From assembly GCA_903859715.1 (NCBI GenBank), contig CAIONS010000062.1:1-64000 (forward strand): a DNA stretch of 64,000 nt. The letters run 5' to 3'. Under the pieces are notes generated by a model that was not told where the DNA came from, searched no databases, and saw only the letters and a list, made by a program, of their open reading frames with translations. The position numbers and the translations under genes were made by a program. Source of the DNA: an uncultured Opitutia bacterium (GTDB taxonomy: Bacteria > Verrucomicrobiota > Verrucomicrobiia > Opitutales > Opitutaceae). How positions within the stretch are numbered: position 1 is the stretch's first letter; each line of letters opens with the position of its first letter. Shown piece by piece: positions 28,996-32,475 of the stretch.

Positions 28996-31900
28996 TCAAA
29001 CGGAAGGCCCGAGGATTTTTTGCTGCAGGTGGGTGACGCGCTGCTTGGATTCGCTGTTGCGCACGGCCATGGCGTAGGCGGCGGGCTCGCCGACGATCAC
29101 GACTTTTTTCCGGCCGCGCGTGATCGCGGTGTAGAGCAGGTTGCGCTGCAGCATCATGAAATGGCCTTTCAGCAGCGGAAGGATGACGACGGGATATTCG
29201 CTACCCTGGGACTTGTGGATGCTGATCGCGTAGGCGAGCACGAGGTCGCCGAATTCGCCGCGGTCAAACGTGTGGCGCTCGCCGTCGAATTCCGCGTCGA
29301 GCGTGCCGGCGACGCCGTCGATGGACTTCACGGTGCCGATGTCACCGTTGAAGAGATTTTTGTCATAGTTGTTGCGGAGCTGGATGACCTTGTCGCCGGG
29401 CCGGTATTCCGCGGCCGGTCCGCGCAGGCCGCGGGAGTGCGGATTGAGCGCGCCCTGCAGGGTGGTGTTGAGGTTGGCGACGCCTGCCACGCCCTTGTGC
29501 ATCGGCGCGAGCACCTGCACGTCGGCGACGGGATCGAACCATTTCCAGAGCTGCGGCACGAACTCGGTGCAGAGCGCCGTGACCTTGCGCAGGCAGTCCT
29601 CGGCATCGGTGGCGACCACGAACGTGAGGTCGCTCCACGCCTGGAGCCCGGTGAGCTCGGTCACGGCGGGCGGCAGGGAGGCGTCGCCGGAGTTGATGGC
29701 GTGGGCGGTGGTGACAATGCCGCTCTGCTCCTTCTGGCGGTAGATGACAGATAAACGCGTCACGGGAATCGGGACGCGTTTGGGCGATGGGATATGAGAG
29801 ATGGAAGATGGAAGGCTGGAGCGGGCGGGGGGACTTCGGTTGTCGCCGGTGGTGGTCCCATCTCCCATCTGCCATCTTCCATCTCCTATCGCCGCGGAGG
29901 CAGCGATGAGGTCCTTGAGCACATTGCCCGCGCCGACGCTGGGCAGCTGGTCGGTGTCGCCGACGAGGAGCAGATGCGCCTTGGCCGGCACGGCCTGAAG
30001 AAGGGCGGAGGCCAGCCGGGCGTCGAGCATGGAGGCCTCGTCGACGATGAGAAAATCGGTCGCGAGCGGATGGGATTCGTTGCTCGTGAAGCCGCCGCTG
30101 GCGGGATCGTACTTGAGCAGCCGGTGAATGGTGGAGGCGAAGCCGCCGGTCGTCTCGGCCAGCCGCTGCGCGGCGCGGCCGGTGGGGGCGGCAAGGTGCA
30201 CGCGGACCTTCTTGGCCTTCAGGATCTCGACGAGGGCGCGGAGGATCGTGGTGTTGTGCGTGACGACATAGTCGTTGGTCACGTAGAGTCCGCTGGCCGT
30301 ATCGATGGAGATGCAGACGCATGCCTCGGGCGGGACCGGGGTGACCGAAGCGATGCGAAGGCGGTGGTCGAGGCGTTTGCGCGGCCGAGGACGGAGCGTG
30401 CGCTTGATTTTCCGCGTGAGTGCGAACAGGGAGGCCGGCTCAGGGTGTTGAAGAAATATGGTGTAGGCGTCCGCGCCGGATTTTTTTTCACCTCGATAGG
30501 TGTAAGTTGGCTTTTTGACCGCGCCGATCGTGGCGATGCAGCCTAGGGACCACGCGAGCCGTTGAAAATCAGTGGCCAACTGATAAGAGCTGGAAGTGAA
30601 AGAAACCACGCCCAGCTTATCGACCGTGCCATCGGTATCCAACAGGCCGCGGATCAGTTCGAGGCGTTGGACTTTGGAAGCATTAAAATAAAGGGAAGGG
30701 ATGAATTTCTGTCCGGAATTAACGATGAGTCCGAGACCCTTGATGGCATCACGCAACGGATTGGGAAACCCCTTGCCGCGGGCGATCAGGCGCCAGGAGA
30801 TGGTGCCGGTGCCTTTCAGCGTCACTTGCTTCAATCTCACGCCCAACGGGGCTACCCGCGCTGACACGCGATCGAGAATTTCTTGATCAATGCACGTAAG
30901 AACCAGGGCATCCGACAGATTCCCGTCCCTGATCAGAGCTCCGAGTACATAGGGATCACAGGGCAGAGTGATATCGGGTAAAGCGGAATTGGGCTGGGCC
31001 AGAGGGATTGCCATGCGCACGCTTTCGGCGCGTCCTTCGGTCAGGCGGCGCAGAATGTAGCTGAGAGGTACCACCCGCCAGCCGCGCGAGCGAACCTTCT
31101 TCTTTTTGGCCGGACTCCACACTGAAATGCGGGTCCAGACCTTCCATAAATGGTCGGCGCAGCACTCGCAGGCACGGCCATCGGCGAATAGCACGCGGAA
31201 GATGGGCTTTACTCCCTGGGGATGCAGGCCGGTGACATGGGCGATATTTCCTTCGGCTGAGATGATGGCGTCACCCGCACGCAGCTGCCCGATTGGACGG
31301 AAGCCCGAAGGAGTCAGAACTTGAGCGTGGAGTGGTTGGGCTTTTCCGGTGCCCGGCCCGCCGGTGAGGATTGTGAACTTGTGCGTCAGGGCGTGGCGAA
31401 CGGCGGTGCGCTGCAGCTCGTGGAAGGCGAAGCCGGCCTTGTCCTCGGCCCACTTCACGGCGGCGTCGGCCTTGATCGGCGGGAGCCCGCTCGCGACACG
31501 GTTGAGCCGGACGACGACGTCGGCGATCTTCTGCTCGGCGCGATCGTTGTGCGGCAGCTGGATGAGAGCGGAGCCGGGCAGGGGCGCGGCGACGCCGGCG
31601 AGCGCGTGCCGGATGAGGGCCTTGTTCTCGACAAGAGCCTGAATGCGGGCCTCGACGAGTTTCGAATCGGTCTCGAGTTGGTTTGAAGAGTAGTCAACCA
31701 GATCGGCCTCGCGGAACGCGGTGTGGCCCTCCTCCTGCAGCGTCTCGAGTGCGAAAATCAGGCCGGCGTCGAGCCGGGGTGGGGCGTCGTTGGCGAAGCC
31801 GAGGTTGATGGCGATGCGGTCGGCGGTCTTGAAGCCGATGCCATCGATCTCGCGGGCGACGCGGTAGGGCTCATTGATCAGCACCTGCTTCGCGCCGGGG

Positions 31901-32475
31901 CCGAAGTGGTTGACGAGCTTCACGCACTGCGAGGGCGTGACGCCGTAGGTCTGGAGAAAGATGTAGAGTTCGCGCTCGGTGCGCTTCTCGTCCCATGCCT
32001 GCTTGATCGAGGTCGCGCGTTTTTTGCCGATGCCCTCGACATCGCGCAGCCGGCCGGATTCCTCGCTGAGCACGCGGAACGTGTCGGTGCCGAACGCATC
32101 GACGATCTTGTTGGCATAGACCTTGCCAATGCCCGGGACGAGGCCGCTGCCGAGGTATTTGCGGATGCCGTAGACGGAGGAGGGGAGCTCGGACTTGAAG
32201 GCCGCGACCTTGAACTGCGCGCCGTGCTGGGCGTGCTTGGTCCATTCCCCGTCGAGGTGCAGCGTCTCGCCGCACTCCACGCCAGGCAGCGTGCCGACGA
32301 TCGTGACCTTGGCCTCGGCGTCCTTCGGGTTCGCGGCGCCGGGCCGGAACTCCGCGATGGTGTAGTGGTTTTCCTCGTTGAAGAAAATGATGCGCTCGAG
32401 GACGCCGGTCAGGGAAGTGGAGACGGGAGGAGCCACGGGTGTCCGCACAAAAAACACAGATGCGCGGCGAGGCAA
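28996..32475 (-). CDS. recD2: RecD2-type DNA helicase containing an in-frame intein
   Basis: 1159 codons, about 796 after removal of the intein (residues 379-741). Host motifs in order: an OB-like N-domain (TIVGTLPGVECGETLHLDG), helix-hairpin-helix (REIDGIGFKTADRIA), the P-loop GGPGTGK/T split by the intein, LIVDEASMLD, LLVGDTDQLPSVGAGNVL, VTRLSVIYRQ, SIHKSQGSEYPVVILPL and LLYTAITRGRKKV. This defines a RecBC-independent 5'-3' SF1B helicase. A second in-frame insertion (residues about 861-898) derives from a palindromic repeat. The frame begins with TTG at 32475; GTG codons at 32448 and 32439 are equally plausible starts. Residue numbers here count from 32475. Confidence 0.95.
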   Translation of the reverse strand: MPRRASVFFVRTPVAPPVSTSLTGVLERIIFFNEENHYTIAEFRPGAANPKDAEAKVTIVGTLPGVECGETLHLDGEWTKHAQHGAQFKVAAFKSELPSSVYGIRKYLGSGLVPGIGKVYANKIVDAFGTDTFRVLSEESGRLRDVEGIGKKRATSIKQAWDEKRTERELYIFLQTYGVTPSQCVKLVNHFGPGAKQVLINEPYRVAREIDGIGFKTADRIAINLGFANDAPPRLDAGLIFALETLQEEGHTAFREADLVDYSSNQLETDSKLVEARIQALVENKALIRHALAGVAAPLPGSALIQLPHNDRAEQKIADVVVRLNRVASGLPPIKADAAVKWAEDKAGFAFHELQRTAVRHALTHKFTILTGGPGTGKAQPLHAQVLTPSGFRPIGQLRAGDAIISAEGNIAHVTGLHPQGVKPIFRVLFADGRACECCADHLWKVWTRISVWSPAKKKKVRSRGWRVVPLSYILRRLTEGRAESVRMAIPLAQPNSALPDITLPCDPYVLGALIRDGNLSDALVLTCIDQEILDRVSARVAPLGVRLKQVTLKGTGTISWRLIARGKGFPNPLRDAIKGLGLIVNSGQKFIPSLYFNASKVQRLELIRGLLDTDGTVDKLGVVSFTSSSYQLATDFQRLAWSLGCIATIGAVKKPTYTYRGEKKSGADAYTIFLQHPEPASLFALTRKIKRTLRPRPRKRLDHRLRIASVTPVPPEACVCISIDTASGLYVTNDYVVTHNTTILRALVEILKAKKVRVHLAAPTGRAAQRLAETTGGFASTIHRLLKYDPASGGFTSNESHPLATDFLIVDEASMLDARLASALLQAVPAKAHLLLVGDTDQLPSVGAGNVLKDLIAASAAIGDGRWQMGDGTTTGDNRSPPARSSLPSSISHIPSPKRVPIPVTRLSVIYRQKEQSGIVTTAHAINSGDASLPPAVTELTGLQAWSDLTFVVATDAEDCLRKVTALCTEFVPQLWKWFDPVADVQVLAPMHKGVAGVANLNTTLQGALNPHSRGLRGPAAEYRPGDKVIQLRNNYDKNLFNGDIGTVKSIDGVAGTLDAEFDGERHTFDRGEFGDLVLAYAISIHKSQGSEYPVVILPLLKGHFMMLQRNLLYTAITRGRKKVVIVGEPAAYAMAVRNSESKQRVTHLQQKILGPSV
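29783..29893. repeat. Palindromic repeat inside the recD2 reading frame
   Basis: GGCGATGGGATATGAGAG and GAGATGGAAGATGGAAGG at the left are mirrored by CCATCTTCCATCTCCTATCG at the right. The element is 111 bases, exactly 37 codons, with no stop in the used frame. It lies between helicase motifs III and IV. Confidence 0.88.
30253..31341 (-). other. Class 3 LAGLIDADG intein in the RecD2 P-loop
   Basis: 363 residues between GGPGTGK and TTILRALVE, beginning AQPLHAQVLTPSG and ending VVTHN. Residue 1 is Ala, so a class 1 acyl shift cannot occur. The class 3 triplet is complete: Trp66 in block B (ADHLW), Cys343 in block F (VCISID) and Thr361 in block G (THN); His362 and Asn363 are the usual last pair and the +1 residue is Thr. 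Block B has CADH in place of TxxH. A homing endonuclease is embedded: LGALIRDG (Asp139) and LIRGLLDTDG (Asp237) keep both catalytic acids. It removes itself to rebuild the ATP-binding loop. Confidence 0.93.

Follow-up and report, generated by a model that had tools for sequence, protein, structure and literature searches.

Class 3 inteins, defined here as in the available parts of PMC5222942 and PMC6195587, are known from the DnaB proteins of M. smegmatis (DnaBi1, structure 6bs8) and M. chimaera (DnaB1, 6rix/6riy). In a window of 64,000 nucleotides from an uncultured Opitutia bacterium of the family Opitutaceae (assembly GCA_903859715.1, contig CAIONS010000062.1, positions 1 to 64,000; "the window" means this whole stretch), a 363-residue insert was found in the recD2 gene. 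The insert shares the Trp/Cys/Thr triplet and the terminal His-Asn with the two DnaB inteins, and the splicing-domain folds are alike. As far as DnaBi1 is described in the available part of PMC6195587, it also has Ala at residue 1 and is inserted in a P-loop. With a probability of about 0.93, the insert is a mobile class 3 intein that invaded the chromosomal recD2 of an Opitutaceae bacterium at the codon boundary between Lys and Thr of the Walker A motif, splices and homes.

Boundaries and class 3 residues

The Walker A loop of RecD2 is interrupted between Lys and Thr, in the order GGPGTGK, AQPLHA...VVTHN, TTILRAL. The initial annotation had described a P-loop parted from its Thr by 363 in-frame residues, and the same boundaries were obtained when they were re-derived (Table 1). 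Precursor and insert form a single open frame with zero stops. Residue 1 is Ala, with Cys, Ser and Thr absent from this position, and Ala1 is also present in 17/17 RecD2 copies. Ala1, His64, Trp66, Asp139, Asp237, Cys343, Thr361, His362 and Asn363 were all confirmed at the positions first assigned to them. His64 (block B position 10), the penultimate His362, the terminal Asn363 and Thr+1 are the other residues expected of class 3.

The RecD2 equivalog model TIGR01448 matched the precursor with 757.5 bits (curated cut-off 500) and covered both exteins, while Pfam analysis of the insert returned LAGLIDADG_3 (E 1.9e-9), with the Hint domain below threshold. Because of this RecD2 score, the LAGLIDADG_3 match and the many phage relatives, the insert is not a chance feature. 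The G+C content is 0.586 for the insert (third positions 0.669) compared to 0.660 (0.874) for the flanking exteins. Third-position G+C was lower in the intein than in the extein in 16 of the 17 distinct RecD2 copies, locus L165 being the exception.

Table 1. Positions of the RecD2 intein, its key residues and its host gene in the window
Feature	Position	Strand	Remarks
recD2 precursor, open reading frame	28996..32475	minus	1159 residues counted from first TTG; TIGR01448 match
N-extein of RecD2	31342..32475	minus	C-terminal end GGPGTGK; P-loop codons 31342-31362
Class 3 intein with LAGLIDADG endonuclease domain, 363 residues	30253..31341	minus	boundaries, Pfam, family alignment, predicted structure
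Trp66	31144..31146	minus	block B position 12, two residues past His64
Homing-endonuclease domain, residues about 120-320	30382..30984	minus	limits approximate; Pfam, predicted structure, profile alignment
LAGLIDADG motif 1, VLGALIRDG	30922..30948	minus	Asp139 retained, Arg138 unusual
LAGLIDADG motif 2, IRGLLDTDG	30628..30654	minus	Asp237 retained
Cys343	30313..30315	minus	block F position 4, predicted initiating nucleophile
Thr361-His362-Asn363	30253..30261	minus	block G positions 5-7
C-extein of RecD2	28999..30252	minus	starts with Thr+1-Thr of the P-loop

Predicted structure

A model was built with AlphaFold2 from 67 sequences, namely the window copy and loci from the genome and viral scans described below. 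Its mean predicted local distance difference test score (pLDDT) was 94.1 and its predicted template modelling score (pTM) 0.92. With VIA-align the whole model ranked PI-SceI first (Z 28.4, 4.1 Å, 338 residues). The best-scoring mini-intein was 6bs8, the class 3 intein from DnaB of M. smegmatis (Z 20.0, root mean square deviation 1.5 Å, 123/125 residues), followed by 6riy (19.5), Prp8 6mwy (19.4), 6rix (19.3), Prp8 6mx6 (19.2), and 6riz and wild-type gp41-1 6qaz (both 18.9). The predicted fold thus supports an intein (Hedgehog/intein, HINT) domain combined with a homing endonuclease.

The 67-member profile aligned to 6riz with an E of 3.8e-21, and the triplet columns fell on HLW, CI and THN of that structure, so that Trp66, Cys343 and Thr361, assigned to B:12, F:4 and G:5, pair with its W, C and T. 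According to its title, 6riz is gp41-1, a class 1 intein into which C1A, F65W and D107C were engineered; the class 3 triplet is therefore present there by design. The available part of PMC7664689 reports that this engineered triplet superimposes on the natural one of the class 3 MchDnaB1 intein. The assignment of a class 3 intein to the RecD2 P-loop is supported by the motif positions, by the fixed W, C and T of the family and the near absence of nucleophiles from its first residue, and by the structural match, which includes solved class 3 inteins.

The intein family

Relatives of the 363 residues were abundant. By tblastn, 764 phage records were matched, 482 of them at 80% coverage or more, as were 39 plasmid records (20 at the same coverage). 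A pattern-limited scan of genome contigs contributed the best 80 of 90 confirmed relatives, and a scan of viral contigs with a three-sequence alignment the best 80 of 231; an earlier viral scan with a single protein as query had given three pattern matches, none of them confirmed. Short rows and rows ending before residue 363 were excluded, and the 170 usable rows comprised 155 distinct inteins once identical copies had been removed. Cys343, Thr361, His362 and Asn363 are kept in 155/155, and these counts are independent of the scan patterns. At residue 1, 139 of them have Ala and 13 Pro, with single cases of Cys, Met and Ser.

Two sets were collected free of any pattern. In the first, all 17 RecD2 copies (16 besides that of the window) have H-x-W, the block F Cys and THN. 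In the second, ten phage and plasmid hits picked by hand for diversity among the matches listed, the same three features were seen by eye in 10/10, and none of the ten starts with Cys, Ser or Thr. Departures within this second set were H-E-W together with Cys+1 in L226, Leu1 in L223 and Gly1 in L230.

By a motif rule applied to the preceding flank, the 155 hosts comprise 55 DnaB-like proteins, 18 SNF2-like proteins, 17 RecD2, 47 other P-loops (flanks ending in GK or AK) and 18 non-P-loop proteins, L014 among the latter having a broken N-terminal end. As the rule leaves only 18 non-P-loop cases, 137/155 inteins lie directly after the Lys of a P-loop-like motif. Bacterial genomes commonly contain class 3 inteins at the Lys/Thr of a P-loop, most of them in proteins that are DnaB-like by motif.

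Two observations were made on viral loci. L098 has Cys at residue 1 together with a complete W/C/T set. L094, L118 and L155 have two separate intein-matching open reading frames each, the second match in L118 being partial, and probably hold two neighbouring class 3 inteins.

Distribution and mobility

The intein was found at the identical RecD2 site in 17/252 Opitutaceae genomes, representing 10/49 genera. All 17 copies are 363 residues long, and all are in RecD2 as judged by the similarity of flanks and exteins. When the flanks were joined into a 179-residue query, 231/252 of the genomes gave a match. Intein-free recD2 in relatives, one of the checks suggested by the initial annotation, was observed as an uninterrupted site in 11/11 congeners, with 90-99% identity. 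Among the best 80 of 90 genome relatives, the RecD2 intein occurs under the names 'Candidatus Didemnitutus' and, in three assemblies, 'Opitutae'. L004 (Opitutaceae, Verrucomicrobiota) is identical to the same-family locus L169 in the intein and the compared extein, which identifies the family of the window as Opitutaceae.

In an order-wide sample hits to the intein were obtained in 6/372 genomes, five of the six within Opitutaceae, and in a phylum-wide sample in 9/387, two of the nine within this family. No RecD2 intein outside Opitutaceae was recognized by its flanks in these two samples, in which the N-terminal flank is garbled in L213 and absent in L218. A chromosomal RecD2 host had been thought unusual for a class 3 intein. 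This is only partly right: class 3 inteins are widespread in bacterial genome assemblies, but RecD2 was met as a host only in Opitutaceae and in assemblies labelled Opitutae (best 80 of 90 from the genome scan; family, order and phylum draws). Other genomes of the phylum (L212-L215, L218) have class 3 inteins with Ser+1, inserted at a different P-loop, EGVGK/S, in L212, L214 and L215.

All 17 RecD2 inteins fall into a single clade with a Shimodaira-Hasegawa approximate likelihood ratio of 100 in a quick tree of 154 rows, one row having been omitted for length. A quick extein tree was made of 45 RecD2: the 17 occupied alleles and 28 empty ones out of 30 retrieved as most similar to that of the window, two being omitted since the exact P-loop string was absent. 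Presence of the intein is patchy on this tree, requiring seven changes, at least six of them forced by starred branches, with gain and loss indistinguishable in these counts. The closest relative of the window RecD2 is an empty allele of 98% identity. The window intein clusters with those of L004, L164-L168 and L171 (support 97), and 6/7 hosts of the inteins grouping with it lie in a separate starred RecD2 clade.

Divergence of intein and extein was computed on codon-aligned sequences. For L173/L175, of the same genus, the synonymous divergence (dS) was 0.06 for the intein compared to 0.27 for the extein, and third positions differed at 17/363 in the intein and 19/100 in the C-extein (Fisher 1.7e-5). 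The congeneric pair L002/L005 showed the opposite direction, with an intein dS of 0.41 and an extein dS of 0.12. L173/L175 is the more telling pair because synonymous divergence is on average greater in inteins than in exteins (mean proportion of synonymous differences 0.64 compared to 0.44). The patchy presence on the RecD2 tree and the discordant divergence of intein and host gene argue that the element moves. In our reading, these sequence patterns reflect inteins being transferred to, and replaced at, one fixed site by homing or by recombination that resembles it.

The insertion codons (31342-31344 and 30250-30252, minus strand) are AAA/ACC in 15/17 occupied and 11/28 empty alleles (Fisher 0.0017), in a test that ignores relatedness and uses the empty alleles nearest the window. 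This is a hint of enrichment that could result from target preference or co-conversion. In DnaB-like hosts the codon before the insertion is AAG in 41/55. When occupied alleles were compared with their nearest empty ones (six pairs) in 25-codon blocks around the insertion, identity showed no clear donor tract. In L170/L198, synonymous differences cluster just after the site; this was considered as a sign of co-conversion and was rejected, as the codons there are almost identical in the empty allele L193.

Endonuclease domain

The window intein has two LAGLIDADG motifs with the acidic residue (Asp139, Asp237) present in both. The ratio of nonsynonymous to synonymous divergence (dN/dS) of the endonuclease region was 0.13 for L002/L005, 0.25 for L173/L175 and 0.13 for L174/L177, and the low values in these close pairs indicate that the domain is constrained in sister lineages. 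Across the 25 pairs listed, the range was 0.11-0.65.

Proposed mechanism and alternative explanations

The unspliced helicase, being without a contiguous P-loop, would be inactive as an ATPase. Following the definition of class 3, Cys343, aided by His64 and Thr361, would attack the Lys-Ala1 bond to give a branched intermediate at block F, after which the N-extein would move to Thr+1. Cyclization of Asn363 and joining of Lys to Thr would complete the reaction, restoring GGPGTGKTT. Since the restored Thr belongs to the P-loop, ATPase activity should depend on splicing. The LAGLIDADG domain, or the version present in recent ancestors, would cut intein-free recD2, and the element would thereby spread among Opitutaceae by homing.

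This proposal is built on the observed sequence, position, family membership, predicted fold, patchy distribution and discordance of intein and extein, and several points weigh against it. Splicing, the order of its steps and the cutting of the intein-free allele are what we infer, and the insertion could be so recent that constraint on RecD2 is no proof of splicing by the window copy. The patterns of the genome and viral scans included HLW and CC, which biases the count of 155/155 for Trp66, as well as that for Cys61, in up to 138/155 rows. The fold does not settle the class, because 6bs8 lies within 1 Z of both class 3 and Prp8 inteins. According to the available part of PMC7664689, gp41-1 with the engineered triplet mainly cleaved and hardly spliced; the triplet therefore serves as a marker but does not suffice by itself. 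Residue 138 of the window copy is Arg (AGG, 30928-30930, minus strand), a state seen in 1/155 sequences, the others having Gly (147), Ala (4) or Ser (3). The small residue before the motif 1 Asp is a regularity of this alignment and not a published definition, and the window copy departs from it. In addition, the sister L003 has Gly in place of Asp237, which means that the copies differ in endonuclease activity, and dN/dS reaches 0.65 in more distant pairs with high dS.

An active endonuclease, regarded as possible at first, is consistent with the two retained acids and with most sisters, which look intact, but Arg138 in motif 1 suggests that the window copy may be impaired. The corresponding residue of PI-SceI is Gly in the profile alignment, and we take this position to be packed close to the endonuclease active site. 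The window endonuclease may be freshly damaged, or Arg138 may be an assembly error.

Together with the absence of a nucleophile at residue 1, the altered motif could also indicate a splicing-dead relic, in which Ala1 would be the trace of a class 1 intein gone to decay and this organism would have no active RecD2. Ala1 is, however, the rule of the family (139/155) and the class 3 residues are fixed; the 17 RecD2 copies have a uniform length and the frame is intact. The window RecD2 has a branch (0.013) no longer than its empty sister's (0.017), although a very recent insertion would fit this as well. A relic is considered very unlikely. Class 2-type splicing, with Thr+1 attacking the N-terminal junction directly and Cys343 dispensable, would suit an intein without Cys1 or Ser1, which class 2 inteins likewise lack (available parts of PMC5222942 and PMC7664689); we regard it as most improbable. 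Next to no credence is given to an ordinary lineage-specific RecD2 domain retained in the mature helicase. Its occurrence in 17 Opitutaceae genomes would fit such a domain, but the insert parts Lys from Thr of the P-loop, is absent from congeners, has the fold of an intein with a homing endonuclease, and belongs to an intein family also found in DnaB-like, SNF2-like and other nucleoside triphosphatases.

A regulatory role for the class 3 intein was also considered. An extra Cys lies two residues before the predicted nucleophile, as Cys341-x-Cys343 (30313-30321, minus strand), in 17/17 RecD2 inteins and 63/155 overall, and Cys341 is a possible redox partner of Cys343. Cys60 and Cys61 are, like these two, present in 17/17 RecD2 copies. 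A reported redox precedent is the Cys118-Cys48 disulfide of M. smegmatis DnaBi1 (available part of PMC6195587). By analogy, oxidation of Cys343 with Cys341 or Cys60/Cys61 might stall splicing and keep RecD2 ATPase-dead until stress is over, but such a switch is considered unlikely.

Host gene and surroundings

The real start codon of the recD2 precursor may lie further inside the open reading frame. The gene is single-copy, no second RecD2 being found in the 3.18-Mb, 71-contig genome. Nine of the ten flanking open reading frames scanned have ordinary cellular domains (TonB plug, WD40, sodium:solute symporter, AraC regulator, two PhyH, sugar transporter, radical SAM and HAD) and one has no domain. 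Phage-specific domains were not seen among these ten, and recD2 is therefore taken as chromosomal, making an Opitutaceae chromosome the host of the intein.

Comparison with known systems

RecD2 was not found as an intein host in searches of the open-access literature, InBase being outside the scope of this search. One paper that treats RecD2 mentions inteins a single time, in the legend of a figure. The available parts of PMC1193525, PMC3556154 and PMC5418858, which mention both inteins and RecD, do not describe a RecD2 intein, and no open-access work was found joining intein, RecD and P-loop, or intein and Opitut- names. RecD2 thus appears to be a new host protein for class 3 inteins. The type of insert, the insertion point and the chemistry are already known and ordinary for class 3. 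The value of the locus is that it belongs to a natural series within one bacterial family, with occupied and empty recD2 alleles in close relatives and with intact-looking, suspect and acid-lost endonuclease copies. Such a series opens the homing, loss and decay of a class 3 intein on a chromosome to direct testing.

The class 3 DnaB inteins of M. smegmatis and M. chimaera are short (139-146 residues) and have Ser+1, whereas the RecD2 intein has a LAGLIDADG domain and Thr+1; DnaBi1 is stated to lack an endonuclease in the available part of PMC6195587. The DnaB-like P-loop inteins of Burkholderiales, Caulobacterales and other bacteria, labelled by P-loop motif only, share the class 3 residues, LAGLIDADG and the Lys/Thr insertion with the RecD2 intein. 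Most full-length examples fall with the RecD2 clade in one starred 76-row set, and the identity is approximately 30-42%. Phage class 3 inteins, such as those of the PhiPA3 SNF2-like helicase and the Vibrio phage YC primase-helicase, and of helicases and terminases in general, have a similar length, the triplet and, in those examined, mostly the same insertion between GK and T or S. They differ in residing in phage genes, and the best full-query identity was 37.3% among the matches listed. PI-SceI, the VMA1 intein, has the same HINT and LAGLIDADG architecture at 19% identity, but its host is the yeast V-ATPase and, with Cys1, it is a class 1 intein.
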